DNA of 64,000 bases from Sphingorhabdus rigui. Its GTDB lineage: Bacteria > Pseudomonadota > Alphaproteobacteria > Sphingomonadales > Sphingomonadaceae. Below the pieces are notes generated by a model. That model made no database searches. It saw only the letters and a list, made by a program, of their open reading frames with translations, and was not told the DNA's origin. Positions within the stretch are counted from its first letter, which is position 1. Each line of letters begins with the position of its first letter. The DNA lies in the NCBI RefSeq assembly GCF_014196595.1, contig NZ_JACIEA010000001.1, positions 746,845-810,844 on the forward strand, in the 5' to 3' direction. Below, one piece after another: positions 4,158-61,463 of this stretch. The position numbers were made by a program, and so were the translations under genes.

Positions 4158-5372
4158 ATGACCGAAGCCTATATCTATGATGCGGTGCGTAGCCCGCGTG
4201 GCAAGGGGCGGCCCGATGGCGCGCTGCATGAAATAACGCCCATCGACCTCGCGGCGCAGGTTCTGGCGGCTATTCGCGACCGCAATGGCCTGTCGGGTGA
4301 AGAGATCGAAGATGTGGCCTTTGGTTGCGTATCGCCAGTGGGCGAGCAGGGCGCAGTTATAACGCGCACCGCCGTTTTGGCTGCTGGCTATCCGCACACA
4401 ACGTCGGGTATTCAGGTGAACCGTTTCTGCGGATCGGGCTTGGAAGCGTCGAACATCGCTGCGGCCAAAGTGAAGTCGGGCGAATGCGATCTGGCTGTTG
4501 GCGGCGGCATTGAATCAATGAGCCGCGTGCCCATGGGTTCGGACGGCGGCGCGTGGCCCATCGACCCGCGCTCGGCGATTGCAAATTACTTCATCCCGCA
4601 GGGCATTTCTGCAGACCTTATCGCCACCAGATATGGCTATAGCCGTGATGATGTCGACGCTTATGCGGTCGAGAGCCAAAAGCGGGCTGGCCGGGCATGG
4701 GCTGAAAAGCGTTTTGCGCGTTCCATCCTGCCGATCCGGGATGTCATTGGTGAAGTCGTCCTTGACCATGATGAATTGATGCGTCCGGAAACGGATATGC
4801 AGTCCTTGGGCGCATTGGCCCCTGCATTCCAGATGATGGGCACCATGATGCCGGGTTTTGATGACATTGCCATCATGCGCTATCCTGATGTCGAAAAGAT
4901 CAACCATGTCCACCATGCCGGCAACAGTTCGGGCATCGTCGACGGTTCGGCCGCTGTGCTGATCGGCACCAAAGAAGCTGGCGAGAAATATGGCCTGAAG
5001 GCGCGTGCACGTATCGTATCGATGGCATCCATCGGTTCCGAACCCGCCATCATGCTCACTGGCCCCGAATTCGCCGCGCAAAAGGCGCTGGCGCGCGCCG
5101 GAATGGACAAGAGCGACATTGATGTGTGGGAATTGAACGAAGCCTTTGCCTCGGTCGTTCTGCGCTTCATGGAAGCGATGAATGTCGACCATAGCGACAT
5201 CAACGTCAACGGTGGTGCCATTGCCATGGGACATCCGCTTGGCGCGACAGGTGCGATGATCCTTGGCACCGTGCTGGATGAGCTGGAGCGTTCCGGCAAG
5301 TCGACTGCGCTCACCACGCTGTGCATTGGTGCCGGAATGGGCACTGCAACCATCATCGAACGCGTGAATTGA
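4158..5372 (+). CDS. acetyl-CoA C-acyltransferase (thiolase)
   Basis: Degradative thiolase, cleaving 3-ketoacyl-CoA with CoA to release acetyl-CoA. Length 404 residues, normal for the family. Catalytic Cys91 lies in NRFCGSGLEAS, the NEAFA segment follows, the histidine is in GGAIAMGHPLGATGA, and the second cysteine is in LCIGAGMG near the C-terminus. It starts 2 bp after the racemase and is followed 14 bp later by the FadB-type gene, so the three encode the later steps of fatty acyl-CoA oxidation together. Chain-length preference cannot be read from the sequence. Confidence 0.95.
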   Translation: MTEAYIYDAVRSPRGKGRPDGALHEITPIDLAAQVLAAIRDRNGLSGEEIEDVAFGCVSPVGEQGAVITRTAVLAAGYPHTTSGIQVNRFCGSGLEASNIAAAKVKSGECDLAVGGGIESMSRVPMGSDGGAWPIDPRSAIANYFIPQGISADLIATRYGYSRDDVDAYAVESQKRAGRAWAEKRFARSILPIRDVIGEVVLDHDELMRPETDMQSLGALAPAFQMMGTMMPGFDDIAIMRYPDVEKINHVHHAGNSSGIVDGSAAVLIGTKEAGEKYGLKARARIVSMASIGSEPAIMLTGPEFAAQKALARAGMDKSDIDVWELNEAFASVVLRFMEAMNVDHSDINVNGGAIAMGHPLGATGAMILGTVLDELERSGKSTALTTLCIGAGMGTATIIERVN

Positions 5373-5386
5373 TCGGGAACGAAAAC

Positions 5387-7582
5387 ATGACTTACACAAC
5401 TTTCTCCGTCGATATCGACGCCGATGGCATTGCGCTTCTGACGATCGACCTTCCGGATGCATCCATGAACGTGTGGAATGGCGCGTTGATCGAAGAATTC
5501 GGCAAATGGGTCGACGATTTCACCACGAACGAAGCCGTAAAGGGCGCGGTCATTACATCGGGTAAGAAATCCGGTTTCCTCGCCGGTGCTGACTTGACCA
5601 TGCTGGGCGGCGCAAAGGCGAGCAGCACCAAAGAAGCGTTCGACCAGGCTTTCGCTTTGAACGCATTGCTGCGCAAAATGGAATCCGGCGGTCATTCCGC
5701 CAAGGACCTGAGCAGCGGTAAGGCGTCGGCAAAGCCGGTTGCTTGTGCGCTGAACGGTCTTGCTTTGGGCGGCGGTTTGGAACTCGCGCTTGCGTGCCAT
5801 TACCGCGTCGTTGCGGACAATCCAAAAATCCAACTCGGCATGCCCGAAGTGATGGTTGGCCTGTTGCCCGGTGGCGGCGGAACGCAGCGGACGCCGCGCC
5901 TCATTGGCCTGCAGAACGCGGCGATGATGATTATTCAAGGCAAGTCGCTCGACCCGGCAACAGCAAAGGCGCAGGGACTGGTGCACGACGTCGCGCCGGC
6001 TGCGGATGTGATCGCCAATGCCAAAGCATGGGTAAAGGCCAATCCGAAGGCGACGGCGCCGTGGGACAAGAAGGATTTCAAATTCCCCGGCGGTGCAGGC
6101 GCGATGGACCCACGTGCGGTTCAGCTGTTCGTTGGCCTGAACGCGATGGCGCATAAGGAGAGCAAAGGCAATTTTGACGCCATTAAGGCCATTTTGTCCT
6201 GTCTGTATGAAGGTTCCATCCTGCCGTTCGACACTGCGCTGCGTGTTGAATCCAAATATTTCACCAAACTGCTTTCGGGCAGCCAAGCGAAGAATATGAT
6301 CCGCACCTTGTTCATCAACAAACAGGCCGCTGAAAAGGGCGCTGGCCGCCCCGCAGGTGTCCCTGCGGTTGAGATTAAAAAGGTTGGCGTACTGGGCGGT
6401 GGCCTGATGGGATCGGGTATCACGCACGTTACCGTTAAGGGCGGCATGGACGTTGTCGTTCTCGACCGCAGCCTTGAAGATGCCAATAAGGCGGTCGATT
6501 ACAGCCGCAAGATCATCGACAAGGCCGTCAGCCGTGGCAAGATGACCAAGGAAGCGGGCGACGCGTTCATGGCGCGGATTACACCCACGGACAATTATGA
6601 CGATCTGAAAGATGTCGACCTTATCATTGAAGCCGTGTTTGAACGGCCCGATGTGAAGGCAGACGTCATTAAGAAGGCAGAGGCGGTCATCGGACCCGAT
6701 GTCGTGTTCGCGTCGAATACGTCGACATTGCCGATTACGGGGCTTGCGAAGAATTCCTCACGTCCGGAATTGTTTGTCGGACTGCACTTTTTCTCGCCGG
6801 TTGAAAAAATGCCGTTGCTGGAGATCATTCCCGGTGAACTGACGGGCGAGCGGGCTATGGCTGCGGCGTTTGATTATAACGCAAAGATTAAGAAGACGCC
6901 GATCGTCGTAAAGGACGTTCGCGGCTTCTTCACCAACCGCGTATTCCCGCCTTATATGGGTGAGGCGATGAAGCTGGTAACCGAAGGCGTAAAACCTGCG
7001 CTCATCGAAAATGCCGCCAAGTCGCTTGGCATGCCAATTGGCCCGCTGGCGTTGCTGGATGAAACCACATTGCAGCTTGGCTATGATGTTATGCAGTCGA
7101 CCAAGAAAGAATTGGGCGACGCGTATCAACCAAGCGGCACCGAAGACTTCATGGAATTGATGGTCGTCAAATTGGGCCGTAAGGGCCGTCGTTTCGGCTC
7201 TGGCTTCTATGACTATGATGACAAGGGCGAACGTCTTGGCCTTTGGCAGGGCATGGCGGAGCATTATCCGCTCGCTGAAAACCAGCCGTCAGTCGAAGAA
7301 GTGAAGCAGCGCCTGCTGTACATCCAGTTGATTGCCACAGCGCAATGCTTTGAAGAAGAGGTCGTGCGCGATCCACAGAGTGCTGATCTGGGTGCTATCT
7401 TCGGTTGGGGCTTTGCGCCGTACACCGGCGGCCCGATGAGCTATATCGACACGGTTGGCCTCGAGAACTTCGTCCGCACCGCCGACAATTTGGCGCAGCG
7501 ATTTGGCAATCGTTTTGCCCCACCCAAAAGCTTCCGCGACATGGCGGACAAGGGCGAGACTTTGTATAAAGCTGCTGCATAA
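5387..7582 (+). CDS. FadB/FadJ-type trifunctional 3-hydroxyacyl-CoA dehydrogenase / enoyl-CoA hydratase
   Basis: Bifunctional beta-oxidation enzyme that hydrates enoyl-CoA and oxidises 3-hydroxyacyl-CoA with NAD. The N-terminal crotonase half shows LALGGGLELAL with Glu132 and LGMPEVMVG with Glu154, the two catalytic acids. The dehydrogenase half shows the GVLGGGLMGSG nucleotide loop near residue 333 and the catalytic histidine in LHFFSPVE near 466. Length 731 residues from ATG 5387; the frame is open further upstream, but that part overlaps the thiolase. It probably forms a complex with the thiolase encoded just before it. The operon ends 20 bp later at a strong terminator. Confidence 0.95.
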   Translation: MTYTTFSVDIDADGIALLTIDLPDASMNVWNGALIEEFGKWVDDFTTNEAVKGAVITSGKKSGFLAGADLTMLGGAKASSTKEAFDQAFALNALLRKMESGGHSAKDLSSGKASAKPVACALNGLALGGGLELALACHYRVVADNPKIQLGMPEVMVGLLPGGGGTQRTPRLIGLQNAAMMIIQGKSLDPATAKAQGLVHDVAPAADVIANAKAWVKANPKATAPWDKKDFKFPGGAGAMDPRAVQLFVGLNAMAHKESKGNFDAIKAILSCLYEGSILPFDTALRVESKYFTKLLSGSQAKNMIRTLFINKQAAEKGAGRPAGVPAVEIKKVGVLGGGLMGSGITHVTVKGGMDVVVLDRSLEDANKAVDYSRKIIDKAVSRGKMTKEAGDAFMARITPTDNYDDLKDVDLIIEAVFERPDVKADVIKKAEAVIGPDVVFASNTSTLPITGLAKNSSRPELFVGLHFFSPVEKMPLLEIIPGELTGERAMAAAFDYNAKIKKTPIVVKDVRGFFTNRVFPPYMGEAMKLVTEGVKPALIENAAKSLGMPIGPLALLDETTLQLGYDVMQSTKKELGDAYQPSGTEDFMELMVVKLGRKGRRFGSGFYDYDDKGERLGLWQGMAEHYPLAENQPSVEEVKQRLLYIQLIATAQCFEEEVVRDPQSADLGAIFGWGFAPYTGGPMSYIDTVGLENFVRTADNLAQRFGNRFAPPKSFRDMADKGETLYKAAA

Positions 7583-7601
7583 AACCAGCAAGCAAGGCAC
7601 A

Positions 7602-7636
7602 AAAAAGGGCGACCTCCGCGGAGGCCGCCCTTTTTG
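7602..7636. terminator. bidirectional rho-independent terminator
   Basis: A-tract, then 11-bp arms (7607-7617 and 7620-7630, GGGCGACCTCC with GGAGGCCGCCC, one mismatch on the plus strand that is a G-U pair on the minus strand), then a T-tract. It sits between the convergent FadB-type and TonB receptor genes and can serve both. Confidence 0.93.
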
Positions 7637-7650
7637 TTTGTGTCGTTGGT

Positions 7651-10260
7651 TTAGAACTTGGCGCGGACGGTCATGCCGTACATGCGTGGCTCTTCAACGA
7701 AACCGATACGCGAACGGGTGCCTGCACCACCGCGAAGCGGGGTGTTGGCGGTAACGCCGCGCGTGATTTCGTTGTTCAGGTTCGTACCCCAAATCTCGAA
7801 CGTGTAACGCTCATCCGGCGTTGTTAGGCCGATGCGCGCATTCATCTTGAAGTAGGCGTCCTGATAATCCAGAGGGATTGGCAGGTTATTGGTATCCAAA
7901 GGAATGGTGCTTGTGCGGCGGCGATCCGAATAGTTGATGTTACCATTTACAAGCAAGCCCCAGCCAGCGTCATTGACCTGTCCTTCATAGGTAAGCCCAA
8001 CAACACCTGCGAACTTTGGCGCGTTGGTCAGCGTAGAGCCACACAGCCTCTGCGTTGACGCCAATGCCGCCGCCGCTACACCGTCGGCACAATCGCCAGG
8101 ATAGCGAGAGTTTGCATATGTTGCTGACACATTCGCCGAGATATTGTCGCTCAGCTTGCCAAACAACTCCAGCTCAGCACCTGTTGACCGCGCCGAATGG
8201 ACGTTGAAGGTCAGGAACTGGACGCCGGTGAATTCAAGCACCTGGAAGTCGCTCATTTTCATGTCGAACAGAGCCAGGTTGGCTTTGATCGATCCGAACA
8301 AAGTTGCCTTAACGCCAACTTCGATCTGGTTAACCTTTTCGGACTTAAAGTCTGGTTCGGCATAGACCGGCGCAACAATCACCGGACCACCCGGTGTTGC
8401 CAAACCGGCAAGAATGGCTGCCGAGTTCTGCAAGGTTGCTGATTGTGGATCGAGGTTGAAACCACCTGATTTGAACCCATGGCTGTAACCAGCATAGAAC
8501 AACAGATCTTCAGTCGCCTTATACCCAAGCTGTGCGGTATAGGTAATCTCGTCATCCTTGAACGTGTCCGACCATGCGCGTGGCAAAGGCAGCAATCGGC
8601 TGGCCAAACCACCGCCCAATGCGGTTGGTGCGGTCAGATTGACCGACGTTGCAAATGGGAAGCAGTTGAGACCAATCAGACCTGCACGAAGTGGGGCAGG
8701 TACGGTACCGGCCAACACACCATTCACGCTGGCTTGGCACGCGCTGGCACCTGCACCGGTCGTTGCAGCAAGCTGGTTGAACGATGCGTCCTTGGTTTCA
8801 TTTACGTAACGGGCACCGAGCGTCAAGCTAAGCTTATCGGTGAAATTGACAACATTGTGCGTAAATACCGACCAACTTTTTGCATCCTGCAGGAACCGGT
8901 TTTCGGCATAGTTACCATCGGCATTGACTGGAACGCCGGCATTGCCGAGCGCGGTCAGTGCGAACAACGGGTTGACCCCTGCCGCATTGGCAAAGTTGAA
9001 TGCACCACCCGTCCGCTGGAAATCGGCATTGAGCGTCATCGTCTGGTCAGCGCGGATTTTCTCGCTCGAGTAGAAACCACCAATCAACCAGTCGAGACTG
9101 TCGTTGAGAGCGGTGCCCTGCAAGCGCAGTTCTTGGGTAAAGGTCTTGATATGGTCACCCGATGGCAAAATGCCGGTGCGTGATGTCGGTGCGCCATTAC
9201 CCACTGTGTAGGTGTTGTTGGAGGTGAAGCCGCCGACCGTGGTCGAGCTTGAATCGAACTTACGATATGCAGTAACCGAGGTCAGCTTTGCCGCACCCAG
9301 GTCCCATTTCAGTTCGGCTGAAGTACCCCATTGCTTGGAGCCGTTCAGATAAGGTCCGCCGTTGATCGATAGATTCTTCAGCGCGCTCATTCCGGACTGG
9401 TCTACGCCATCGCTGGCCAAACCATGGAAAGCGGAGAAAGGTGCAAGTTCGGTTTCACGAACGATAACCGCTTCGCAGCATTGTTCGTCGGTCTTGGCAT
9501 AATCGGCCAACAGACGGATGCTGACATCGGCATTTGGTTCGACGTACAATTGTCCGCGCAGCATGTAACGATCACGGTTGTTGCTCTCTACGCCCGATGG
9601 GGTTTTGAGATAGCCGTCGCGTTTGCGCCATGTGCCGGACACCCGGAGGCCCGCAACATCAGTGGTAATTGGCACGCTAACGCCGGCTTGAAGGTTCATG
9701 AAATTGTAATTGCCATAGCTCGCATTTGCGAAGCCTTCGACTTCAGAAAGGCTCGGACGCTTTGTCGAGACGTTCAGCGCGCCAGCCGAAGTGTTGCGGC
9801 CAAACAAAGTGCCCTGAGGTCCGCGCAGGATTTCAAGCCGCTCAAGGTCGACAAGGTCACCCAAAGCAACGCCTGGGCGTGACTGATATACGCCATCGAT
9901 GAAAACACCGACCGAGCTTTCAAGACCGGTGTTGTTCCCGGTCGTGCCGACGCCGCGAATTTTGATCGAGGTACCCTGTGTTTCGGTCTGCGATGATTGA
10001 ATGTTAAAGCTTGGCGAAATGGACGCCAGATTCTTAATATCATTGATTCCCTGACGCTCCAGCGCCTCTGGTGCGACCGCGGTCACGGCAAGCGGAATGT
10101 CTTGCACATCCATCGCGCGCAACGTTGCGGTAACGATAATGGGTTCATCACCACTATCTTCTTCGGCTTGGGCTGTTTGGGCGTAAGCCGCAGGCACGAA
10201 CATCGCGCTGCAGATGGTACTGCACAGGGCAGCCGTGATTACACGGTTAAATCGACGCAT
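7651..10260 (-). CDS. TonB-dependent outer-membrane receptor
   Basis: Outer-membrane 22-strand barrel receptor that imports a ligand using TonB energy. The 869-residue product starts with a signal peptide (positive MRRF, hydrophobic core, cleavage after AYA near residue 27). A TonB-box-like EPIIVTA follows near residue 40, then a plug domain (SIKIRGVG, GVFIDGVYQSR, LEILRGPQGTLFGRNTSAG) to about residue 165, then the barrel ending in an aromatic residue (VRAKF). The ligand is unknown. Iron-siderophore-type sphingomonad receptors and those linked to aromatic or sterol compounds look alike at this level; the convergent acyl-CoA operon hints at a lipid-type substrate but does not prove it. Confidence 0.93.
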   Translation of the reverse strand: MRRFNRVITAALCSTICSAMFVPAAYAQTAQAEEDSGDEPIIVTATLRAMDVQDIPLAVTAVAPEALERQGINDIKNLASISPSFNIQSSQTETQGTSIKIRGVGTTGNNTGLESSVGVFIDGVYQSRPGVALGDLVDLERLEILRGPQGTLFGRNTSAGALNVSTKRPSLSEVEGFANASYGNYNFMNLQAGVSVPITTDVAGLRVSGTWRKRDGYLKTPSGVESNNRDRYMLRGQLYVEPNADVSIRLLADYAKTDEQCCEAVIVRETELAPFSAFHGLASDGVDQSGMSALKNLSINGGPYLNGSKQWGTSAELKWDLGAAKLTSVTAYRKFDSSSTTVGGFTSNNTYTVGNGAPTSRTGILPSGDHIKTFTQELRLQGTALNDSLDWLIGGFYSSEKIRADQTMTLNADFQRTGGAFNFANAAGVNPLFALTALGNAGVPVNADGNYAENRFLQDAKSWSVFTHNVVNFTDKLSLTLGARYVNETKDASFNQLAATTGAGASACQASVNGVLAGTVPAPLRAGLIGLNCFPFATSVNLTAPTALGGGLASRLLPLPRAWSDTFKDDEITYTAQLGYKATEDLLFYAGYSHGFKSGGFNLDPQSATLQNSAAILAGLATPGGPVIVAPVYAEPDFKSEKVNQIEVGVKATLFGSIKANLALFDMKMSDFQVLEFTGVQFLTFNVHSARSTGAELELFGKLSDNISANVSATYANSRYPGDCADGVAAAALASTQRLCGSTLTNAPKFAGVVGLTYEGQVNDAGWGLLVNGNINYSDRRRTSTIPLDTNNLPIPLDYQDAYFKMNARIGLTTPDERYTFEIWGTNLNNEITRGVTANTPLRGGAGTRSRIGFVEEPRMYGMTVRAKF

Positions 10261-10472
10261 TATACTCTCTCCTCCTATTCAACCGACACCCTTGCGGCAT
10301 TTGCTGCTCACTTCGGGCTGCCAGTTTTGACACGCTCACCGGCTGAAATGGTCCGGTGGGCAAGCTCTCTCTCAATCACCATCCTATCGCCGAATTTTAA
10401 CAAATCCAGCGATTTAATCGTGCAGTTGAAATTTATACTTTCCAGTGGCTTTTGTGCCCTTTGGCGCTAATT

Positions 10473-12674
10473 ATGCGGTCTATGTTTGACCGTCCTACGA
10501 TATTAGACGCGGCTTTTCTGCGGCGTGTTGCTGCCCATGACTTTCCCGCGCCGCGTGCGAACGGTGCTGCCGAAGGAGCAGCGTCCCATCTGCTGGTCGA
10601 TTTGTTTGATACGCAAATCATGAACCGCCACCTCGATCTTTGGGCGCGTCGGTCAAAGGGTAAGACCTTTTATTCCATCGGCAGTTCGGGGCATGAAGGG
10701 ACTGCAGCGATGGCGGCGGCGACGCGCGCGACCGACATGGCATTTTTGCATTATCGCGATGGCGCGTTTCTGATTCAGCGCAAAAAGCAGGCGGGCGGCC
10801 TGACGCCATTATATGACATGGCTTTGTCCTTTGCCGCTTCGGCAGATGATCCGATTTCCGGCGGGCGGCACAAGGTTCTGGGATGCGCACACACTTTTGT
10901 CCCTCCGCAGACCAGCACCATTGCCTCGCATTTGCCAAAGGCCGTCGGCGCCGCGCATTCCTTGGGGCTGGCGCGGCGTCTGCAACTCGATGATGCGGTA
11001 CTCCCCCACGATTCTGTCATTTTATGTTCCTTCGGCGATGCATCGGCCAACCACTCGACATCGCAAGGCGCGTTCAACGCCGCCTGCTGGGCTGCGTATC
11101 AGCATTTGCCTATGCCGATTGTCTTCCTGTGTGAGGATAATGGCATTGGTATTTCGGTGCGGACGCCCGGTGGATGGATAGCGGCGAACTTCGCGCATCG
11201 ACCGGCGTTGCATTACATTGCCTGCGACGGGGCGGACCTGAATGATGCTCTGCGTGGTTGCCACGAAGCCGTCGCCTATGCGCGTGCGCGACGCAGGCCC
11301 GTATTTCTGCATATGCAGACAGTGCGCCTCATGGGACATGCGGGGGCAGATGTTGAATTAAGCTACGCACCGATTGCGCAGATTGAAGCCGCCGAAGCGC
11401 AAGATCCATTGTTGCACAGCGCGCGGATTTTGCATGAACAAGCGGGCATGTCGGGCGCGGAGATTGTTGCGCGCTACGAAGATATGCGCGCGCGGGTGGA
11501 CCGCGTTGCCTTGGACGCGCTCGCCAAGCCACGGCTCGTCACCGCGCAAGAGGTGATGGCCTCCATCCTGCCAGAGGAAGGCGCCAAGCCGTCGCGGCCA
11601 TTGCCCGATGCGGCCGCACGCGACGCGCTTTTCACCAAAGACGCACGCAACTTGGCTAAACCTGTCACTTTGGCCAAGAGCATCAATTTTGCTTTGGCGG
11701 ATATCATGCTGCAATATCCCAATGTCGCGGTGTTCGGCGAAGATGTTGCGCGCAAAGGCGGCGTTTATGGCGTGACACAGGGGCTGCAGGAAAAATTCGG
11801 CGCAGCGCGTGTGTTTGATACGTTGTTGGACGAACAGACCATTCTTGGGCTGGCCATCGGCATGGGGCATAATGGCTTTGTTCCTATCCCCGAAATCCAG
11901 TTTTTGGCCTATCTGCATAATGCCGAGGACCAAATCCGGGGCGAAGCGGCGACCTTGTCCTTCTTTTCAAACCGTCAATATCGCAACCCTATGGTCGTGC
12001 GTATCGCTGGCTTGCCCTATCAAAAGGGCTTTGGCGGGCATTTCCACAATGACAACAGCATCGCTGTCCTTACCGACATTCCCGGTATCATTGTCGCATG
12101 TCCGTCCAATGCCGCTGATGCGCCTGCTATGCTGCGTGAATGCGTCCGGCTTGCGCATGAGGATGGCCGTGTTGTGATCTTCCTTGAACCCATCGCACTG
12201 TATCACACAACGGACCTTCATGGTGCGGAGGATGGGGCGTGGTCTGCGGAATATACAGCGCCGACGGACGCGCGTGAAATCGTCTTTGGTGCGCTTGGGC
12301 AATTTGGCAACGGCACTGAACTTGCGATTATAACATATGGAAATGGTTATTATTTATCGCGTCAGGCTGCGCCCGAATTGGAAGCGTTGGGCATCACATT
12401 ACGCATCATTGACCTGCGTTGGTTACATCCGTTGAATGCGGACGCAATTGTGGCTGCGGTGGCGGATTGTTCGAATATCCTGATTGTTGACGAAAGCCGC
12501 CGATCGGGAAGCTTGAGTGAAAAGCTGATGACCATATTGACGGAGGCTGGTCGTGGTAACGCCGTTAGCCGAATTACGGCGGAAGATTGCTTCATCCCGC
12601 TTGGGCCCGCGGCTGAGCTGGTATTGCCAAGCAAGCAATCGATCGTGGAAGCCGCCAAGGCAGCGGTCGCATGA
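10473..12674 (+). CDS. fused E1 alpha/beta 2-oxoacid (branched-chain type) dehydrogenase
   Basis: Thiamine-diphosphate enzyme that decarboxylates a 2-oxoacid and transfers the acyl group, with alpha and beta subunits fused in one chain. Residues about 1-370 are E1-alpha-like (SIGSSGHEGTAAMA, HYRDGAFLIQRKKQAGG, and a GDASANHSTSQG cofactor loop ending in CEDNGIGIS). Residues about 390-733 are E1-beta-like (FGEDVARKGGVYGVTQGL, LDEQTILGLAIGMG, a central PEIQFLAYLHNAEDQI). The frame extends to TTG 10452; ATG 10473 or 10482 is more likely, without a clear Shine-Dalgarno. No E2 or E3 gene is adjacent. Instead it overlaps a FabD-like acyltransferase gene by 4 bp. The exact substrate is uncertain. Confidence 0.85.
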   Translation: MRSMFDRPTILDAAFLRRVAAHDFPAPRANGAAEGAASHLLVDLFDTQIMNRHLDLWARRSKGKTFYSIGSSGHEGTAAMAAATRATDMAFLHYRDGAFLIQRKKQAGGLTPLYDMALSFAASADDPISGGRHKVLGCAHTFVPPQTSTIASHLPKAVGAAHSLGLARRLQLDDAVLPHDSVILCSFGDASANHSTSQGAFNAACWAAYQHLPMPIVFLCEDNGIGISVRTPGGWIAANFAHRPALHYIACDGADLNDALRGCHEAVAYARARRRPVFLHMQTVRLMGHAGADVELSYAPIAQIEAAEAQDPLLHSARILHEQAGMSGAEIVARYEDMRARVDRVALDALAKPRLVTAQEVMASILPEEGAKPSRPLPDAAARDALFTKDARNLAKPVTLAKSINFALADIMLQYPNVAVFGEDVARKGGVYGVTQGLQEKFGAARVFDTLLDEQTILGLAIGMGHNGFVPIPEIQFLAYLHNAEDQIRGEAATLSFFSNRQYRNPMVVRIAGLPYQKGFGGHFHNDNSIAVLTDIPGIIVACPSNAADAPAMLRECVRLAHEDGRVVIFLEPIALYHTTDLHGAEDGAWSAEYTAPTDAREIVFGALGQFGNGTELAIITYGNGYYLSRQAAPELEALGITLRIIDLRWLHPLNADAIVAAVADCSNILIVDESRRSGSLSEKLMTILTEAGRGNAVSRITAEDCFIPLGPAAELVLPSKQSIVEAAKAAVA

Positions 12675-13705
12675 AGAAGCGCGCATTGGTCGTTTGCCCG
12701 GGACGCGGCACCTACAACGCGTCCGAGCTTGGATATGTGCAGAAGCACCATGCGGCGCGCGCTGACGTGGTCGGCATTGTTGATGCGGTGCGTGCGGAAA
12801 AGGGCCAAGTGCCGGTATCGACGCTCGATAAAGCCGAGAAATACGCGCCATCGGTACATATGACCGGCGATAACGCATCCCCGCTGATTTACGCATCTGC
12901 CCTCGCGGATTTCGCTGCGATTGATCGTGATAAATTTGATGTCGTTGCGGTGACGGGCAATTCAATGGGCTGGTATCTCGCGCTGGCCTGTGCGGGTATC
13001 GTCGATCTGGCGGCGGGTGCGCGGCTTGTGAACAATATGGGCCTGTTAATGCATGAACATGGCACCGGCGGGCAGATCGTATGGCCGATTGTCGATGCCG
13101 ACTGGAACATTGACCAAGAAAAAATGCATTTTATCAATACTTTACTAGATGAAGCAAAGAATATTTCTGATATTTTCATATCGGTGTCGATACGCCTCGG
13201 CGGGATGGTGGTGTTCGCAGGAGACGAAGCCGGACTGAAATGGCTCGCCGAAAAACTGCCGAAGGACGACCGCTTCCCATTGCGGCTGATGCACCATGCG
13301 GCATTCCATAGCCCGTTGCTGCAGCATATCGTGCCGATGGCGCGCGCGCAGAATCCCGTGGCGGATTTCGGCCCGGGCAACATTCCGGCAATTGACGGGC
13401 AGGGCAAGATTTGGTCGCCGCATGCCTTTAGCCAAGACGCGATCTACGCCTACACGCTTGGCGCGCAATTGACCGAGACATATGATTTTAGCCGTGCGGT
13501 GCAGGTTGCTGCGGCAGAATTCGCGCCGGACGTTGTGATCGTGCTTGGGCCCGGAACCACCTTGGGCGCGCCAACGGCACAAGCGCTGATTGCATCGGGT
13601 TGGCGTGGCCTTTCGGGCAAAGCAGACTTTCAGGCACGGCAGCAGGACGAACCCATATTGATTTCCATGGGTATGGACGAACAGCGCGCCTGGGCATCAC
13701 GTTAA
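12671..13705 (+). CDS. FabD-like ACP acyltransferase family protein
   Basis: Member of the malonyl-CoA:ACP transacylase fold. The nucleophile elbow is VTGNSMGWY with Ser98, and HHAAFHSPLLQ near residue 213 matches the catalytic-histidine FHSPL segment of FabD. The rest diverges from housekeeping FabD: the N-terminus ALVVCPGRGTYNASE replaces the usual FPGQGSQ. Length 344 residues. Its ATG overlaps the stop of the E1 fusion gene (ATGA), so the two are probably translated together. The partner acyl carrier and acyl group are unknown; it may handle the acyl product of the E1 enzyme (inference). Confidence 0.72.
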   Translation: MKKRALVVCPGRGTYNASELGYVQKHHAARADVVGIVDAVRAEKGQVPVSTLDKAEKYAPSVHMTGDNASPLIYASALADFAAIDRDKFDVVAVTGNSMGWYLALACAGIVDLAAGARLVNNMGLLMHEHGTGGQIVWPIVDADWNIDQEKMHFINTLLDEAKNISDIFISVSIRLGGMVVFAGDEAGLKWLAEKLPKDDRFPLRLMHHAAFHSPLLQHIVPMARAQNPVADFGPGNIPAIDGQGKIWSPHAFSQDAIYAYTLGAQLTETYDFSRAVQVAAAEFAPDVVIVLGPGTTLGAPTAQALIASGWRGLSGKADFQARQQDEPILISMGMDEQRAWASR

Positions 13706-13733
13706 ACGTTGCATACGAATAAGCGCTAGACGC

Positions 13734-13762
13734 TTGTGCCCTGCAGGATAAAGGGGGCACAA
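13734..13762. other. hairpin in zwf leader / end of preceding operon
   Basis: TTGTGCCC (13734-13741) pairs perfectly with GGGCACAA (13755-13762) across a 13-base loop, in the 100-bp gap between the FabD-like gene and zwf. No T-tract follows, so it may be a weak terminator for the upstream pair or a leader structure. Confidence 0.3.
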
Positions 13763-13805
13763 TTGGTAAGGCGACCGACCGGTGCCTTGCATGGAGACGA
13801 ACAGA

Positions 13806-15251
13806 ATGAGCATGCACAGTTCCACCTTGCTGTTGTTTGGGGCCACGGGTGACCTTTCACGGCGCATGCTGCTGCCGTCCTTATATGCGCTGCATGCCGA
13901 TGGCCTGATTAATCCTGACCTGCGTATTTTCGGCACCGCACGCAGCGCGCTTACCGATGATGCCTTTCGCGACATGGCACGCGCGGCATTGTGTGAATTT
14001 CTGCCCGATGACCGCAAGGCAGAGGGCCTGATTGACGCATTTCTGCAAAGGCTGTCCTACGTCGCGCTGGATGCGTCCGATCCGCAAGGCTTTGCCGCAT
14101 TGGCGGACAAGATTGGCGACATATCAGGCGGATTGTCGATTTTCCTGTCCACCGCGCCATCTTTGTTTGAGCCAACAATCAAGGGCCTCCACAATGCTGG
14201 CCTGTCTGGTGAAAATGTACGCATTGGTTTGGAAAAGCCATTGGGCAATGATTTGGCGTCATCGCAGCATATCAATGACGCCGTGAACGCGGTTTTCCCG
14301 GAAACGCGGACGTTCCGCATCGACCATTATCTGGGCAAGGAAACGGTCCAGAACCTGATGGCGCTTCGTTTTGCCAATATGTTGTTTGAGCCGCTGTGGA
14401 ATGCCAATGCCATTGAGCATGTGCAGATTACGGTGAGCGAGACCGTCGGGCTGGAGGGGCGGGCCGGATTTTATGACGATACCGGCGCGCTGCGCGACAT
14501 GGTGCAAAACCATATGCTGCAATTGCTGGCGCTGACAGCCATGGAGCCACCGGCAAGTCTGGATGCGACGGCCATCCGAGATGAAAAGGTAAAGGTCCTG
14601 CGCGCGCTGCGTCCGGTGGTGGAAGGTGACGTCGTGACCGGGCAATATAATGACGGTGCGGTCAACGGCGAAGCGGTCAAAGGCTATGACAGCGACCTCG
14701 GCAAACCATCCGACACCGAAACCTTTGTCGCGATCAAAGCCTATGTCGACAATTGGCGGTGGCAGGGCGTGCCGTTTTTCCTGCGCACCGGGAAACGTTT
14801 GCCCGAACGCCGCAGTGAAATCGTCATCCAGTTCAAACCCGTCCCGCACAATGTGTTCAAGGACCGTGGTGGTCGGCTGGAGGCAAATACGCTGGTTATC
14901 CGGTTACAGCCGGAGGAATATGTGCGGCTGTTGGTGATGGCCAAAGAACCCGGGCTGGATCGCGGCGGGGTCACCTTGCGTGAAGTGCCGCTTGATCTGT
15001 CACTCACCGCCGCCTTTGCCGGATCGCGGCGGCGGATTGCATATGAACGCCTGCTTCTCGACCTCATAGAAGGCGACCAGACGCTATTTGTCCGCCGTGA
15101 CGAGGTCGAGGCCCAGTGGAAGTGGATCGATGCCATACGGGCGCTGTGGGACGCGACAGCGTTGAAGCCAAAGGGCTATGGTGCCGGTAGCTGGGGCCCC
15201 AGTGCCGCGATTGCCCTCACCGAACGAGATGGAGTGAGCTGGCATGAGTAA
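13806..15251 (+). CDS. zwf: glucose-6-phosphate 1-dehydrogenase
   Basis: Oxidises glucose 6-phosphate to 6-phosphogluconolactone with NAD(P), the entry step of the Entner-Doudoroff and oxidative pentose phosphate routes. [11 protein letters not shown] at the N-terminus is the nucleotide-binding segment and [19 protein letters not shown] is the active-site signature with catalytic His and Lys. ATG 13806 is preferred to the open-frame start at 13782 because GGAGA lies 9 bases before it; this gives 481 residues. First gene of a tight five-gene operon; its end overlaps edd by 8 bp. No local sugar regulator is seen. Confidence 0.95.
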
Positions 15252-17067
15252 AATGCACGCAACCGTTGAAGCCGTCACCGCGCGCATCATCGAACGGTCC
15301 AAGCCCGGGCGTCAGGCCTATCTCGATCTGATCGCCAAGCAGCGCGATGCAGGCGTAAACCGGCCCACGTTAAGCTGCGGCAATCTGGCGCATGGCTTTG
15401 CCGCGAGCGGTGAGGATAAGCCTGCCATTCGTGGCGGCAAAGCGATGAACATCGGCATTGTCAGTGCCTATAACGACATGCTGTCGGCGCATCAGCCATA
15501 TGGCCGCTACCCCGAGCAGATGAAAATATTCGCGCGCGAGGTCGGCGCGACGGCGCAGGTCGCAGGCGCGGTGCCCGCGATGTGCGATGGGGTGACGCAG
15601 GGGCAGGATTCGATGGAGCTGTCGTTGTTCAGCCGCGATGTCATTGCCATGGCAACCGCGGTTGGCCTGAGCCACGGGATGTTTGAAAGCGTCGCGATGT
15701 TGGGCATTTGTGACAAGATTGTCCCGGGCCTGCTGATCGGCGCGTTGCGCTTTGGCCATTTGCCGACCGTCCTCGTGCCCGCAGGCCCAATGCCGTCGGG
15801 CCTTGCCAACAAAGAAAAACAGCGTGTCCGTCAGCTATATGCAGAGGGCAAAGTAGGCCGCGCCGAATTGCTGGAGGCGGAAGCCGCGTCCTATCACAGC
15901 GCTGGCACATGTACTTTTTACGGCACCGCCAATTCCAACCAGATGATGATGGAGGTCATGGGGCTGCATATCCCAGGCGCCGCATTCATCAATCCGGGGA
16001 ACAAGCTACGTACCGAATTGACACGCGCTGCGGTCCATCGGTTGAGCGAAATTGGCTGGGACGGCGATGATTACCGGCCCTTAGGGCTGTGCGTCGACGA
16101 AAAAGCAATCGTCAACGCTTGTGTCGGCTTGCTGGCAACAGGCGGATCGACGAACCATGCGCTGCACATTCCGGCCATCGCACGCGCCGCCGGTATCGTC
16201 ATCGATTGGGAAGATTTGGATCAGCTGTCCGCAGTGGTGCCGTTGATCGCCCGCGTGTATCCGAACGGCTCTGGGGATGTGAACCATTTCCACGCCGCAG
16301 GCGGAATAGGCTATGTCATCCGCGAACTGATAGACGCAGGGCTTCTCCACCGCGATATCATGACGGTCGCGGGACAGGATTTGGCCGATTATGGGCGTGA
16401 GCCCATGTTGGAAGACGACAAGCTTGTGTGGCGCGACGCACCTGCGGTGACCGCCGATGACACGATGCTGCGCCCGCCGTCCGCGCCGTTCAGCCCCGAT
16501 GGTGGCATGCGTTTGGTGACAGGTAATTTGGGCCGTGCGACGTTCAAGACCAGTGCGGTTGATCCAGCCCGCTGGACCATCGAAGCACCGGTGCGCGTAT
16601 TTCACGAACAAAATGATGTACTTGCAGCCTTTAAGGCGGGCGAGCTTGATCGCGATGTCATTGTCGTCATCCGTTTTCAGGGGCCTGCCGCCAACGGCAT
16701 GCCTGAACTGCACAAGCTGACGCCGCCATTGGGTGTGTTGCAGGATAAGGGCTTTAACGTCGCGCTCGTGACCGACGGGCGCATGTCCGGTGCATCCGGC
16801 AAAGTGCCAGCCGCGATCCATTTAAGTCCGGAAGCTGCACGTGGCGGGGCAATTGCGAAGCTTCAGGATGGCGACGTCGTGCGCCTGTGCGCCACCAGCG
16901 GCACTTTGTCCGTGCTGGTCGATGACAGCGAATGGACCGGTCGCGCACCCGCCCCGACGCCCGTGGCGCATGTCGGCACCGGACGCGAGCTGTTTGCACT
17001 GATGCGCGCTACGGCCGATGAAGCGGAAAAGGGCGGGTCAGCCATGCTCGCGGCGGCAGGGCTATGA
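15244..17067 (+). CDS. edd: 6-phosphogluconate dehydratase
   Basis: Fe-S enzyme of the IlvD/Edd family that dehydrates 6-phosphogluconate to KDPG, the committed Entner-Doudoroff step. Length 607 residues, right for Edd and longer than typical IlvD. Family segments seen include [65 protein letters not shown] and [11 protein letters not shown]; the cysteines in AMCDG and GTCTFYG are candidates for the cluster ligands. It overlaps zwf upstream and glk downstream (ATGA overlap at 17064-17067), so translation is coupled. Confidence 0.95.

Positions 17068-55073: not shown

Positions 55074-55077
<4 letters not shown>
54226..55077 (+). CDS. HpcH/HpaI (CitE-like) CoA-ester lyase
   Basis: TIM-barrel lyase of the citrate lyase beta/malyl-CoA lyase group, 283 residues from ATG 54226; ATG 54199 directly follows the repeat and adds nine residues. 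[32 protein letters not shown] has the metal-binding region, VFVRVNP the arginine, LPKAEG the lysine, and LPIATET the glutamate. Likely splits a 3-hydroxy dicarboxyl-CoA such as malyl- or citramalyl-CoA. It follows a MaoC hydratase and its stop overlaps the convergent acnA by 4 bp. Confidence 0.87.
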
Positions 55078-57749
<2,672 letters not shown>

Positions 57750-58019
57750 GTTGGTACTACCCCTTCAAAATTGAGGCTTTTGGCCGGATGGGGAAGACGA
57801 CACGGTAGGCGCTTGCTGCAACCCATGAAACGCGCGTCAAACCAGCGTAAAAGCGGGAGATTCGTTTGCTGGCCGCGCCTTAGCGCGGATGGGGTGGGGG
57901 TGCAAGGTGGCGGCGGGGAAAATTGCCGGTGGGTGGATGGAGGATTTTTGGCGCGGGGAGGCACGAAGAGTAGGAAGGGAGGGTGGGGAAGGGGCGTGGC
58001 GGCGGCGGGCCATGTTACA

Positions 58020-58065
58020 CCCCACCTCGTCACCCTGAACTTGTTTCAGGGTCTTAATTCTGGAC
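58020..58065. repeat. 46-bp direct repeat, copy 1 (palindromic element)
   Basis: Identical to 58703-58748. Includes the stem ACCCTGAA-CTTGT-TTCAGGGT and the tail CTTAATTCTGGAC. With 58077-58109 it forms a large imperfect inverted repeat. Confidence 0.9.
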
Positions 58066-58076
58066 GGTGTGGGAAA

Positions 58077-58109
58077 AAGTAAGACCCTGAAACGAGTTCA
58101 GGGTGACGG
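58077..58109. repeat. 33-bp repeat, inverted relative to 58020-58065
   Basis: Identical to 60278-60310. Stem ACCCTGAA-ACGAG-TTCAGGGT. It is the reverse complement, with two central mismatches, of the core of 58020-58065. Confidence 0.9.
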
Positions 58110-58560: not shown

Positions 58561-58626
58561 GTTGGTTCCAAATTTTGCATGGTCGTGCGGGGGTTTTCCA
58601 ACATTGGGGGTTTAAGAAAAATTAAG

Positions 58627-58647
58627 ATGCTGAAACAAGTTCAGCAT
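58627..58647. repeat. variant palindromic repeat with compensating changes
   Basis: ATGCTGAA-ACAAG-TTCAGCAT, a perfect 8-bp stem. Compared with ACCCTGAA-ACGAG-TTCAGGGT at 58077-58109, two positions differ on each arm, and each change on one arm is matched on the other. Flanking bases (TTAAG before, GACGG after) are shared. Confidence 0.85.
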
Positions 58648-58702
58648 GACGGGGTGGGTGTTGAACGGCCGTGCCTTTGCCCTTCCTCGCCGCCTTCTAT
58701 TG

Positions 58703-58748
58703 CCCCACCTCGTCACCCTGAACTTGTTTCAGGGTCTTAATTCTGGAC
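58703..58748. repeat. 46-bp direct repeat, copy 2
   Basis: Exact copy of 58020-58065, 637 bp apart, on the other side of the GIY-YIG gene. It is also inverted with respect to 60278-60310, so this pair flanks the HEPN gene. Confidence 0.9.
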
Positions 58749-58782
58749 ATCGCAAAAAATAAGAAACAGCACGGCCATGTCC

Positions 58783-58831
58783 AATTTGTCACAAATATTG
58801 ACAAATTAGACGTTCGCTTCATCATTATAAT
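58783..58831 (+). promoter_or_regulatory. palindromic operator and promoter-like elements of HEPN gene
   Basis: AATTTGTCA (58783-58791), 7-base spacer, TGACAAATT (58799-58807): perfect 9-bp arms. TTGACA (58798-58803) lies in the right arm and TATAAT at 58826-58831, but the 22-bp spacing is longer than normal for a sigma-70 promoter. A regulator bound here would cover the -35. Confidence 0.45.
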
Positions 58832-58843
58832 CAGAGGGAGCTG

Positions 58844-58882
58844 ATGATGCGTTTTTCCAACATATTGGTTACGGCATGGTAG
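58844..58882 (+). CDS. 12-residue leader peptide overlapping HEPN gene
   Basis: ATGATG at 58844 encodes MMRFSNILVTAW and stops at TAG 58880-58882, overlapping the HEPN start (ATG 58876) by 7 bp in another frame. It has the best Shine-Dalgarno of the region (GAGGGAG about 5 bases before), whereas ATG 58876 has none. This suggests translational coupling; it may also be the mark of a shifted start. Confidence 0.4.
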   Translation: MMRFSNILVTAW

Positions 58883-60231
58883 AAGATTCGGAACTGTTCG
58901 ATGCGATGTGGCGTTGGACGCAAACTGCAATCAATAACCTTCACAATATTAGTAGCGACGGTTCAGTCATAGTCGCCGGAGGGCAGGGATGGGCTTGCGA
59001 TCCAGATGGTCGAATTGTCCTTGGACATCGACACGTTCTCTTCCATCCACCGATGATCGAAAACCTACTTTACGAAAATGCAGAGTGGAAAACTCTTGAA
59101 GAAATGTCGCGCAATCACACTCGGATGGCAATGCATTGCGATATACCAGTTGGCACACCCTATGACGGTACAAGCCAACATTCAGCTAAAGATTTCTGTT
59201 ATAGCCTGCTTCCCACGCCATATATTGGCGGACAAGGTTTTTCTCTAACCGACGTTGAAGGCACAGCGGATCGAATTACCAATTTGATCAACGAATTTAA
59301 CGATGATTACGTTACAATGACGACGGTTTGGCCAATCTGTGGAATGCGCGTGCGCCAGCCACTGTACCTAGATGATGAGCAATGTTTTCGACCTTTGACC
59401 GAGCAAGAAAAACTGTCGGTATTGAATTTCAAAATAATCGACGTTTATGAGGGGCAAACGGTTCTCGATCCAAATCAAACAGATTGGTATGGTTTTGTTT
59501 TAAATGAACGCTTCGAAAAATTGTTGGGCCACATCGAAACGACGCCAGACGATTTGGCGGAGAAGTGTAATCGTCGCGACAAATGCCTTGAAATGTTTTT
59601 ATCCGTCGCACCGGTCGTTACCGACTTCGTTGCTTATCATGGCGGTGGAAATTCCCACGCACCTCGATTTTCATCGCGCGGGATTTTAAGTCGAGGCGAA
59701 ACTGGCTATTTGGCAGGGCCTGGCGGAATTAGATTTCTATTTCCTGATTACGGCGTGACGTTGACAGACGACCAATCGGCAAGGTTCATTCATGTCTGGA
59801 AGCTGGTTTCTGGTACCGGTCCCAACAACAATAAAACCGCCAAAGCGTTGCGTAACGCCATGCGCCGCTTGTTTTACGCAGAAACTCGGGTTTTACCTCA
59901 GGATCGCCTCGTCGATCTTATGATCGCCGCAGAGTCTATTTATACGATAGACAGTAAGGCCGAACTGTCGTTTCAATTATCGCAAAATGCCGCGCTCTGG
60001 CACGATGGAACCAACATGGAGCGACGCGCTGCCTTTAAGGTAATGCGAGACGCGTACAAACTACGCAGCGATATTGTGCATGGTTCGATGGTCGATGACG
60101 ATAAGGTTGCTCTGGCTGCATCGAACGTTCGAACTCTGTTAAAGGCCGGAATTGCCAAGGCAATTGATGCTCATCTCTCTGATGGATTTCGGCCGAAATG
60201 GGAGGAATTGGTGTTTCCTCTGACGGAATGA
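58876..60231 (+). CDS. uncharacterised protein with C-terminal Apea-like HEPN domain
   Basis: 451 residues. The C-terminal part (about 344-440) has the pattern of Apea-like HEPN domains: RLVDLMIAAESIY, AELSFQLSQNAALW, then YKLRSDIVHGS. RSDIVH (Arg397 to His402) is the RX4H motif of HEPN ribonucleases. The N-terminal 340 residues match nothing I know; they have no signal peptide or membrane helix, with a few Cys and His scattered. Base composition is visibly more AT-rich than the neighbouring genes and codon choice differs, suggesting transfer. It lies alone between inverted repeats. HEPN proteins of this kind (for example ApeA) act in phage defence, but that role here is inference. Confidence 0.78.
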   Translation: MVEDSELFDAMWRWTQTAINNLHNISSDGSVIVAGGQGWACDPDGRIVLGHRHVLFHPPMIENLLYENAEWKTLEEMSRNHTRMAMHCDIPVGTPYDGTSQHSAKDFCYSLLPTPYIGGQGFSLTDVEGTADRITNLINEFNDDYVTMTTVWPICGMRVRQPLYLDDEQCFRPLTEQEKLSVLNFKIIDVYEGQTVLDPNQTDWYGFVLNERFEKLLGHIETTPDDLAEKCNRRDKCLEMFLSVAPVVTDFVAYHGGGNSHAPRFSSRGILSRGETGYLAGPGGIRFLFPDYGVTLTDDQSARFIHVWKLVSGTGPNNNKTAKALRNAMRRLFYAETRVLPQDRLVDLMIAAESIYTIDSKAELSFQLSQNAALWHDGTNMERRAAFKVMRDAYKLRSDIVHGSMVDDDKVALAASNVRTLLKAGIAKAIDAHLSDGFRPKWEELVFPLTE

Positions 60232-60277
60232 TTAGGTGCGTGCGCTTCGCAGTTTCCTGCTAGTCACCGTGGTCGGG

Positions 60278-60310
60278 AAGTAAGACCCTGAAACGAGTTC
60301 AGGGTGACGG
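60278..60310. repeat. 33-bp repeat, copy downstream of HEPN gene
   Basis: Identical to 58077-58109; inverted relative to 58703-58748. It closes the HEPN gene on the right. Confidence 0.9.
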
Positions 60311-60354
60311 AGTGGGATGATTCACTAAGGGTAACGGAGTGTGCTGATTCACGA
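60301..60354. repeat. 27-bp imperfect tandem duplication
   Basis: 60301-60327 and 60328-60354 are two adjacent 27-bp units (AGGGTRACGGAGTG...GATTCAC) differing at four positions. The first unit overlaps the end of the palindromic repeat at 60278-60310. Confidence 0.8.
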
Positions 60355-60371
60355 CGGCTGCGGCCCGTCCC

Positions 60372-60644
60372 TCACACCAAAACCCGCACCCTTTTGTCCC
60401 GCGCGGTTTGGCCGTGGGTGATTTCCAACTGGCTGACCGATACTTCCAGCAACTTGGCCAAGATGGCCAGCACGGCCTTGTTCGCCTTGCCATCTTCCGG
60501 TGCGGTGCGGAGCCAGATTTTGAGGGCGCCGTTTTCAATCGCGGCCTTTTCCACCTTTGCCCCCGGCACCACGCGCAGCGATAGCTCGTTTCGGTCGGAT
60601 ATCAGCGCGGTGATCGCTTCCGGGGTCAATGTGGGTGCAGCCAT
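60372..60644 (-). CDS. DUF167 family protein (YggU-like)
   Basis: 90-residue UPF0235/DUF167 protein. LSLRVVPGAKVEKAAIENGALKIWLRTAPEDGKANKAVLAILAKLL is the whole family signature. Cytoplasmic; the function remains unknown, though structures show a small alpha/beta fold. ATG 60644; divergent from the HTH gene. It marks the right border of the repeat-rich segment. Confidence 0.9.
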   Translation of the reverse strand: MAAPTLTPEAITALISDRNELSLRVVPGAKVEKAAIENGALKIWLRTAPEDGKANKAVLAILAKLLEVSVSQLEITHGQTARDKRVRVLV

Positions 60645-60728: not shown

Positions 60729-61463
60729 ATGGCACGCAAAACCAACGCTTCTGACCTTGTTTTGACAATATTGCCCGATTCGGCGCAGCGCATTCCGTCC
60801 GGGCCGCGGGTGAACCGCAACCGGTTGATGCCCGGATTGCGCGTGCGGCATGACGGGTGGACGGAGGAGCGGACGCAGCGCTTTTTTGACGCCTTGGGCC
60901 ATACCGGTTGTGTGCGCGATGCGGCGCGGGTGGCGGGGGTTTCCAATGCGGCGGCGTACCGGATGAAGCGGCGCTTTCCGTTATTCGCGCAAGCATGGGA
61001 GGATGCGCTGGACCGGGCGGGGCAGGGGCTGTTGGCGATTGCGTATAAGCGCGCGGTGGAGGGGCGGGAGACGGTGATCATTCGCGGCGGGCAGGAATAT
61101 GAACGGCGGATTACGCCGTCGGACGCGATCCTTGGCCTGTTGCTCAAACGCGGCGATATGGCGGGGACGGGCGCGCTGCCGGGGGGCAAATTGCCCGATG
61201 ATCTGTTAAGCTTTGACGAATGGCAACGGCACAAGCGCTTTGACGATTATGGGCGGAAGATCGAGATTGAGGACCCCGAAACATCGAAGGATAAGTTTAT
61301 CGCCAAGCTGACCGAAATCCGCAACCGGTTGAAAGAATATGGGCGGCAGGGCGTGGCATGCCCCACTTGTCATCAGCCATTGCCCGACGGGTGGCCGAAC
61401 CAGTCCATGGCGGTGCTGGTTGCGTCGGGATTGGTGGGCCCCAATGAGCTGTTTGATGATTAG
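60729..61463 (+). CDS. HTH domain protein, terminase small-subunit-like
   Basis: 244 residues of uncertain role. WTEERTQRFFDALGHTGCVRDAARVAGVSNAAAYRMKRRFPLFAQAW (about residues 40-90) is a helix-turn-helix with the layout of phage small terminases and related sphingomonad proteins. The end has a CPTCHQPLPDG knuckle with only two cysteines. GGAG precedes ATG 60729, and TATAAT lies at 60706-60711 in an AT-rich stretch. No large terminase or other phage gene is adjacent, so it may be a stand-alone DNA-binding protein. Confidence 0.7.
   Translation: MARKTNASDLVLTILPDSAQRIPSGPRVNRNRLMPGLRVRHDGWTEERTQRFFDALGHTGCVRDAARVAGVSNAAAYRMKRRFPLFAQAWEDALDRAGQGLLAIAYKRAVEGRETVIIRGGQEYERRITPSDAILGLLLKRGDMAGTGALPGGKLPDDLLSFDEWQRHKRFDDYGRKIEIEDPETSKDKFIAKLTEIRNRLKEYGRQGVACPTCHQPLPDGWPNQSMAVLVASGLVGPNELFDD

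Follow-up and report, generated by a model that had tools for sequence, protein, structure and literature searches.

A HEPN-domain gene in a cargo-swapping chromosomal locus of Sphingorhabdus rigui as a candidate one-gene phage-defence effector

What is an AT-rich gene for a HEPN-domain protein doing between the aconitase gene acnA and a DUF167 gene of Sphingorhabdus rigui, and does it serve in defence against phages? The window analyzed here is a stretch of 64,000 nucleotides (assembly GCF_014196595.1, contig NZ_JACIEA010000001.1, positions 746,845 to 810,844), and all positions given below, including those of the features collected in Table 1, refer to it. We hold, with moderate confidence, that the gene encodes a single-gene, horizontally acquired HEPN ribonuclease, most likely a phage-defence effector of the abortive-infection type: a one-gene antivirus system is probable because the locus is a swap site for different genes, often phage-defence genes.

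The gene is an intact open reading frame (ORF) with the 451-residue product described in the original prediction, which had been made from the sequence alone. A protein search (5.8 billion proteins, 8000 candidates scored) returned 14 relatives, 28 to 90% identical and including one fragment, and in a 15-row alignment (A2) R397 and H402 of the predicted RX4H motif, which sit within YKLRSDIVHG, are kept in every sequence. That alignment has 24 invariant residues, 17 of them in the last 139 positions, and in all 14 comparisons conservation is lower across the N-terminal part than across the C-terminal part, although by only 1 to 2 points in the closest three. An AF2 model of the 451-amino-acid (aa) protein (pLDDT 81.9, pTM 0.80) contains the helical bundle of HEPN domains; the fold matches ranked 1 to 6 are titled HEPN, and the top matches include toxins of HEPN-MNT pairs (8yuf, 8xdj, 8xeh, and 5yep; chains of 124 to 134 aa), whereas the CRISPR ancillary ribonucleases Csm6/Csx1 (6tug, 8y7g, and 5yjc) match less well than single HEPN domains do. 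The N-terminal region is mixed alpha/beta in the model and has no clear match among PDB folds, in agreement with the earlier failure to assign it (the boundary is placed here at residue 312). Modelled fold and motif conservation together make the predicted identity as a HEPN protein firm.

The GC content of the gene (0.477) is the lowest among the 48 nonoverlapping window ORFs of ≥150 aa (mean, 0.564; standard deviation, 0.027), bearing out the AT richness noted previously, and its GC content at third codon positions is 0.46, against 0.66 to 0.76 in eight listed genes nearby. It occurs in its own genome only (1 of 61 sampled); the check for absence proposed with the original prediction found it missing from all 60 relatives, including all 36 congeners. 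That prediction was to be given up if the gene stood at the same place in all relatives with normal composition, if no HEPN fold was predicted, or if the RX4H residues were not conserved, and none of these was found.

Of 45 genus genomes, 16 have a match to the DUF167 gene, and the regions around it were compared in 11 of the 15 other genomes (G012, G026, G033, and G449 were left out). Eight of these 11 regions contain acnA as well as DUF167; L043, a ninth, ends at a contig end, its left end still matching window positions 57756 to 57926, and L047 and L049 have no acnA within their 12-kb regions. In the distant congeners (L044, L045, L046, and L048), the interval holds a 732-aa protein, GGDEF-EAL by reading. 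In the near congeners, the cargo differs from locus to locus: L039 carries a match to PD-Lambda-5_A (E 1e-68) beside a DpnI-family gene, L041 a GmrSD_N/NsnA protein, and L040 a probable second HEPN protein (profile columns 317 to 445, probability 76%, E 2e-5). PD-Lambda-5 is a defence system that was selected experimentally (PMC9519451). Four of the six near loci, including the window, thus hold different defence-like cargo between conserved flanks at one place, one of the four by the probability-76% HEPN match. For this genus sample, it is firm that the HEPN gene is an accessory gene in a cargo-swapping locus.

Two of these cargoes have features of their own. The HEPN-like ORF of L040 (469 aa, oriented 499-1908 of 4900-15400, GC content 0.44) is similar in length to the window protein, has a different N terminus, and matches no Pfam or PADLOC model. 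The L041 cargo is a very AT-rich two-gene unit (ORFs of 228 and 374 aa, GC content 0.36 to 0.38), in which one ORF, unassigned and matched by neither Pfam nor PADLOC, looks like a nucleotidyltransferase; the other is the GmrSD_N protein.

The edges of the variable segment can be placed by comparison with these near congeners. Window positions 57000 to 57918 are 97% identical to L039 and L040, and left-side matches stop at 57922 (L041), 57926 (L043), and 57978 (L042); identity returns at 60379 (L039), 60363 (L040), 60385 (L041), 60353 (L043), and 60328 (L042), such that the right edge adjoins the DUF167 stop codon at 60372. Direct extra copies of the DUF167 3′ end are present in L040 (157 bp, 90%), L041 (87 bp, 80%), and L042 (197 bp, 91%), the last of which runs on into the adjoining palindrome (window 60277 to 60565, 83%); the window itself has no such duplication. 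These copies suggest that cargo is exchanged through recombination at the DUF167 tail or at the palindromes. No integrase was recognized on reading the L040, L041, and L042 intervals, nor was a transposase-like ORF on reading the ORFs of the variable segment. The duplicated tails lie between or beside cargo modules, as if each acquisition had replaced the tail of the gene.

The original prediction had instead taken the gene for a solitary island bracketed by inverted repeats. Copies of one palindromic element are indeed present at 58703 to 58748 and 60278 to 60310, inverted relative to each other, but they are not island termini, and we rejected that model: the window contains five copies (starts at 58029, 58080, 58623, 58712, and 60281; ≤6 mismatches in 28), all within the variable segment, a 74-nt query containing the palindrome has 36 matches across the 2.47-Mb genome, many of them as close inverted pairs, and the segment edges are at 57918 to 57978 and 60328 to 60385, not at 58703 and 60310. 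The palindrome is a dispersed element, which we label REP-like, and no island end. Nor is the HEPN gene the sole gene of the segment, because a GIY-YIG gene also lies there.

How such a protein might act is suggested by other HEPN effectors. HEPN domains have been described as RNases that are typically dimeric and nonspecific and have an RX4H site (PMC11087260). One protein with a lone C-terminal HEPN domain, Tha of Staphylococcus aureus prophages, is an infection-triggered RNase that provides abortive-type defence and whose expression alone leaves growth unslowed (PMC11087260). By published architecture, Tha resembles the window protein in being a single effector with an unassigned N terminus and a C-terminal HEPN domain with RX4H, and it differs in being 301 aa long, prophage borne, and accompanied by an inhibitor, Ith (PMC11087260). 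With Tha as the working model, two C-terminal HEPN domains (residues 313 to 451) would pair, and R397 and H402 of each chain would form one RNA-cutting site; by analogy, the N-terminal domain of ~312 residues might keep this site inactive and release it upon an infection cue, after which RNA cleavage would halt growth and phage production. A role in phage defence is, on present evidence, likely.

The neighbourhoods of distant relatives give this reading partial support. Eight of their loci were read with wider context (the short contigs L011 and L012 are outside the count), and four have defence genes nearby. In L010, from a Rhodobacteraceae metagenome-assembled genome, 14 bp separate the end of an OLD-type nuclease gene (PADLOC Old, 3e-54) from the longest ORF reading of the relative, and genes for an integrase and a resolvase lie close by; L059 has a cytosine methylase, Vsr, EcoRII, and an integrase, L062 has McrC and, ~5 kb off, LmuB (2e-172), and L064 has PD-Lambda-4_A (E 0). 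As a separate observation, the relative in L010 (7980-11269) lies at least 14 bp downstream of the OLD-type nuclease gene, and the pair is possibly a two-gene OLD-HEPN system.

Several results weigh against a defence role. Company with phage-defence genes, which the original prediction had proposed to look for, holds for the same locus in near congeners and for those four of eight distant relatives; in the other four (L060, L061, L063, and L065), no known defence gene was seen, on reading alone for L060 and L061 and with one neighbour each scanned against Pfam for L063 and L065. The scanned neighbours were chosen by reading, and these counts are raw, uncorrected for a background rate. Viral contigs, plasmids, and phages yielded no relatives. 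At the locus itself, L040 also carries TonB receptors (by reading), and no defence-like gene was recognized on reading L042 and L043. No database defence model matches the window protein, and the sole PADLOC row in its 14-member family, SIR2 in one member (E 0.028), was set aside as chance.

A fuller version of the defence reading can be offered only tentatively, namely that this is a one-protein antiphage system new to description, in which a HEPN RNase is joined to a new N-terminal sensor fold and which resides in a new sphingomonad defence hotspot, where recombination at the DUF167 3′ end and the adjoining REP palindrome swaps the cargo, with duplicated tails as scars and no integrase in cis. 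Among the titles and abstract openings listed in literature searches on a Sphingomonas defence hotspot and on HEPN/ApeA, none describes the acnA-DUF167 locus or the window protein. Confirmation would add a HEPN defence effector that is compact and works without a partner, with a trigger domain of no recognized fold, as well as a chromosomal address, acnA-DUF167, at which genus genomes could be mined for unrecognized defence genes; position alone has already led to genes resembling PD-Lambda-5 and GmrSD/NsnA and to two HEPN proteins whose N termini differ.

Among the alternatives, an orphan toxin fares best, although we consider it unlikely: a HEPN toxin or stress ribonuclease that stands alone and is controlled by its own leader and operator would slow growth under stress without sensing phages. 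The toxins of HEPN-MNT pairs among the top fold matches point in this direction, as do the palindrome and the 12-codon leader ahead of the gene. The palindrome, TTTGTCA-N7-TGACAAA, has a single copy in the window and, among 67 loci, occurs only in the four that overlap the same place; judging from sequence, it is possible that it acts as an operator and that the leader ORF provides translational coupling. The leader ORF has a good ribosome-binding site, whereas the HEPN start codon itself has none. Against an orphan toxin, the window protein is more than three times the length of the toxin chains and carries a large, conserved extra N-terminal domain of ~312 residues, and relatives have defence-like neighbours. 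Moreover, reading of the flanking ORFs upheld the claim that no antitoxin or partner adjoins the gene: neither an MNT nucleotidyltransferase nor any other antitoxin-like gene was recognized in 58561 to 58875 or 60232 to 60371. Seven ORFs (20 to 203 aa) overlap the 315 bp upstream, and four (21 to 117 aa) overlap the 140 bp downstream; on reading, every one of them was taken for an overlap with the palindromes or with flanking genes.

Distinctly less probable is that the protein is a true ApeA family member (HEPN_Apea with ApeA-NTD1) that has diverged beyond the reach of the models; as a member, it might be activated by deoxydinucleotides, as ApeA reportedly is. ApeA shares the single-gene organization of the window protein. 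A preprint named in the reference list of PMC13405049 reportedly concerns the activation of ApeA by deoxydinucleotides. The label "Apea-like" in the original prediction has a counterpart in the source name of one relative (P0007, "Apea-like HEPN"; P0016 is named "HEPN domain-containing protein"), and PF18739 is reached by one of the 14 family members (E 0.13). The order of parts is also similar, ApeA having an N terminus of ~300 residues followed by a C-terminal HEPN domain with the conserved R..H motif; ApeA-NTD1 is characterized as ~300 aa of mostly beta strands, poorly conserved and fused to HEPN (PMC3710099). However, the N-terminal model of the window protein is mixed alpha/beta, and the protein has no match at E≤1 among Pfam, NCBIfam, and PADLOC models and none among PDB sequences; a Pfam scan returned no family at E≤10. 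For ApeA-NTD1, the missing Pfam match is no firm sign of absence, the domain being described as poorly conserved.

Profile comparisons bear further on the matter. PF18739 has nine matches in 349 phylum genomes, six of them over the cut-off, whereas its scan of 119 genomes of the bacterial family was silent everywhere, controls included, and is hence uninformative by itself. A comparison profile built from six of the nine (L050 and L052 to L056, L056 being under the cut-off; L051, L057, and L058 were excluded), a shallow alignment, matches the window family with a probability of 2.5% (E 0.019) over 34 columns around the motif, with no significant similarity outside it. Comparison with seven distant HEPN proteins from the same bacterial family (L013 to L019) gives 99.5% (E 2e-22, columns 75 to 447), although these were selected through the A1 profile search and thus do not make an independent test, and the alignment as printed is clearest C-terminally. 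We rejected ApeA membership: by these sequence tests, the window protein is part of a wider group of unnamed, uncharacterized HEPN proteins, to which L013 to L019 and P0016 belong, and the "Apea-like" assignment is not sustained. Profile matches occur in 8 of 397 genomes of the bacterial family, the seven besides its own at only 28 to 45 bits. A profile search (8000 scored) gave 16 rows with three new identifiers, one of which, P0016, repeats the L012 sequence that the query already contained; P0011 does not reappear among these rows. Further weak rows were likewise put down to chance: PF17824 (DUF5586) in 5 of 14 members (best E 0.0044), three further single-member Pfam rows among the 14, and five single-member NCBIfam rows among 15 members (best E 0.037).

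Least probable is a passenger or decaying acquired gene without current function, as its absence from every other sampled genus genome and the mixed cargo of the hotspot might suggest, since the reading frame is maintained, given nine full-length relatives at 63 to 90% identity on other contigs, and the intact ORF retains all 24 family-invariant residues.

Table 1. Features of the acnA-DUF167 interval and its flanks (window positions)
Feature	Position	Strand	Remarks
acnA (aconitase; name from first reading)	55074-57749	-	Left conserved flank; 98-100% protein identity in L039-L042
Variable (cargo) segment	57919-60384		Left edge 57918-57978, right edge 60328-60385, by near congener compared
Two REP-like palindromes	58029-58056, 58080-58107		
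GIY-YIG protein, 107 aa	58237-58560	-	PF01541 E 9e-16; inside variable segment
Two REP-like palindromes	58623-58650, 58712-58739		
Palindrome TTTGTCA-N7-TGACAAA	58785-58805		Upstream of HEPN gene, possible operator; TTGACA hexamer in right arm
Putative 12-codon leader ORF	58844-58882	+	AGAGGGA ahead; overlaps HEPN start codon; read from sequence
HEPN-domain gene	58876-60231	+	451-codon ORF, 451-aa product
N-terminal region (residues 1-312; alpha/beta; putative sensor)	58876-59811	+	
C-terminal HEPN domain, residues 313-451	59812-60228	+	
RX4H motif R397-SDIV-H402	60064-60081	+	Invariant in 15/15 alignment rows
REP-like palindrome	60281-60308		Between HEPN gene and DUF167
DUF167 gene	60372-60644	-	PF02594; right flank; 3′ end is cargo edge

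The second gene of the variable segment, that of the GIY-YIG protein, has no match in any of the 11 congeneric regions, and a second copy (41% identity) exists elsewhere in its own genome. Adjoining DUF167 outside the segment, a 244-aa protein (60729 to 61463) resembles, by eye, a phage terminase small subunit; it has no Pfam match near the cut-off and is 89 to 98% identical in L039 to L041.
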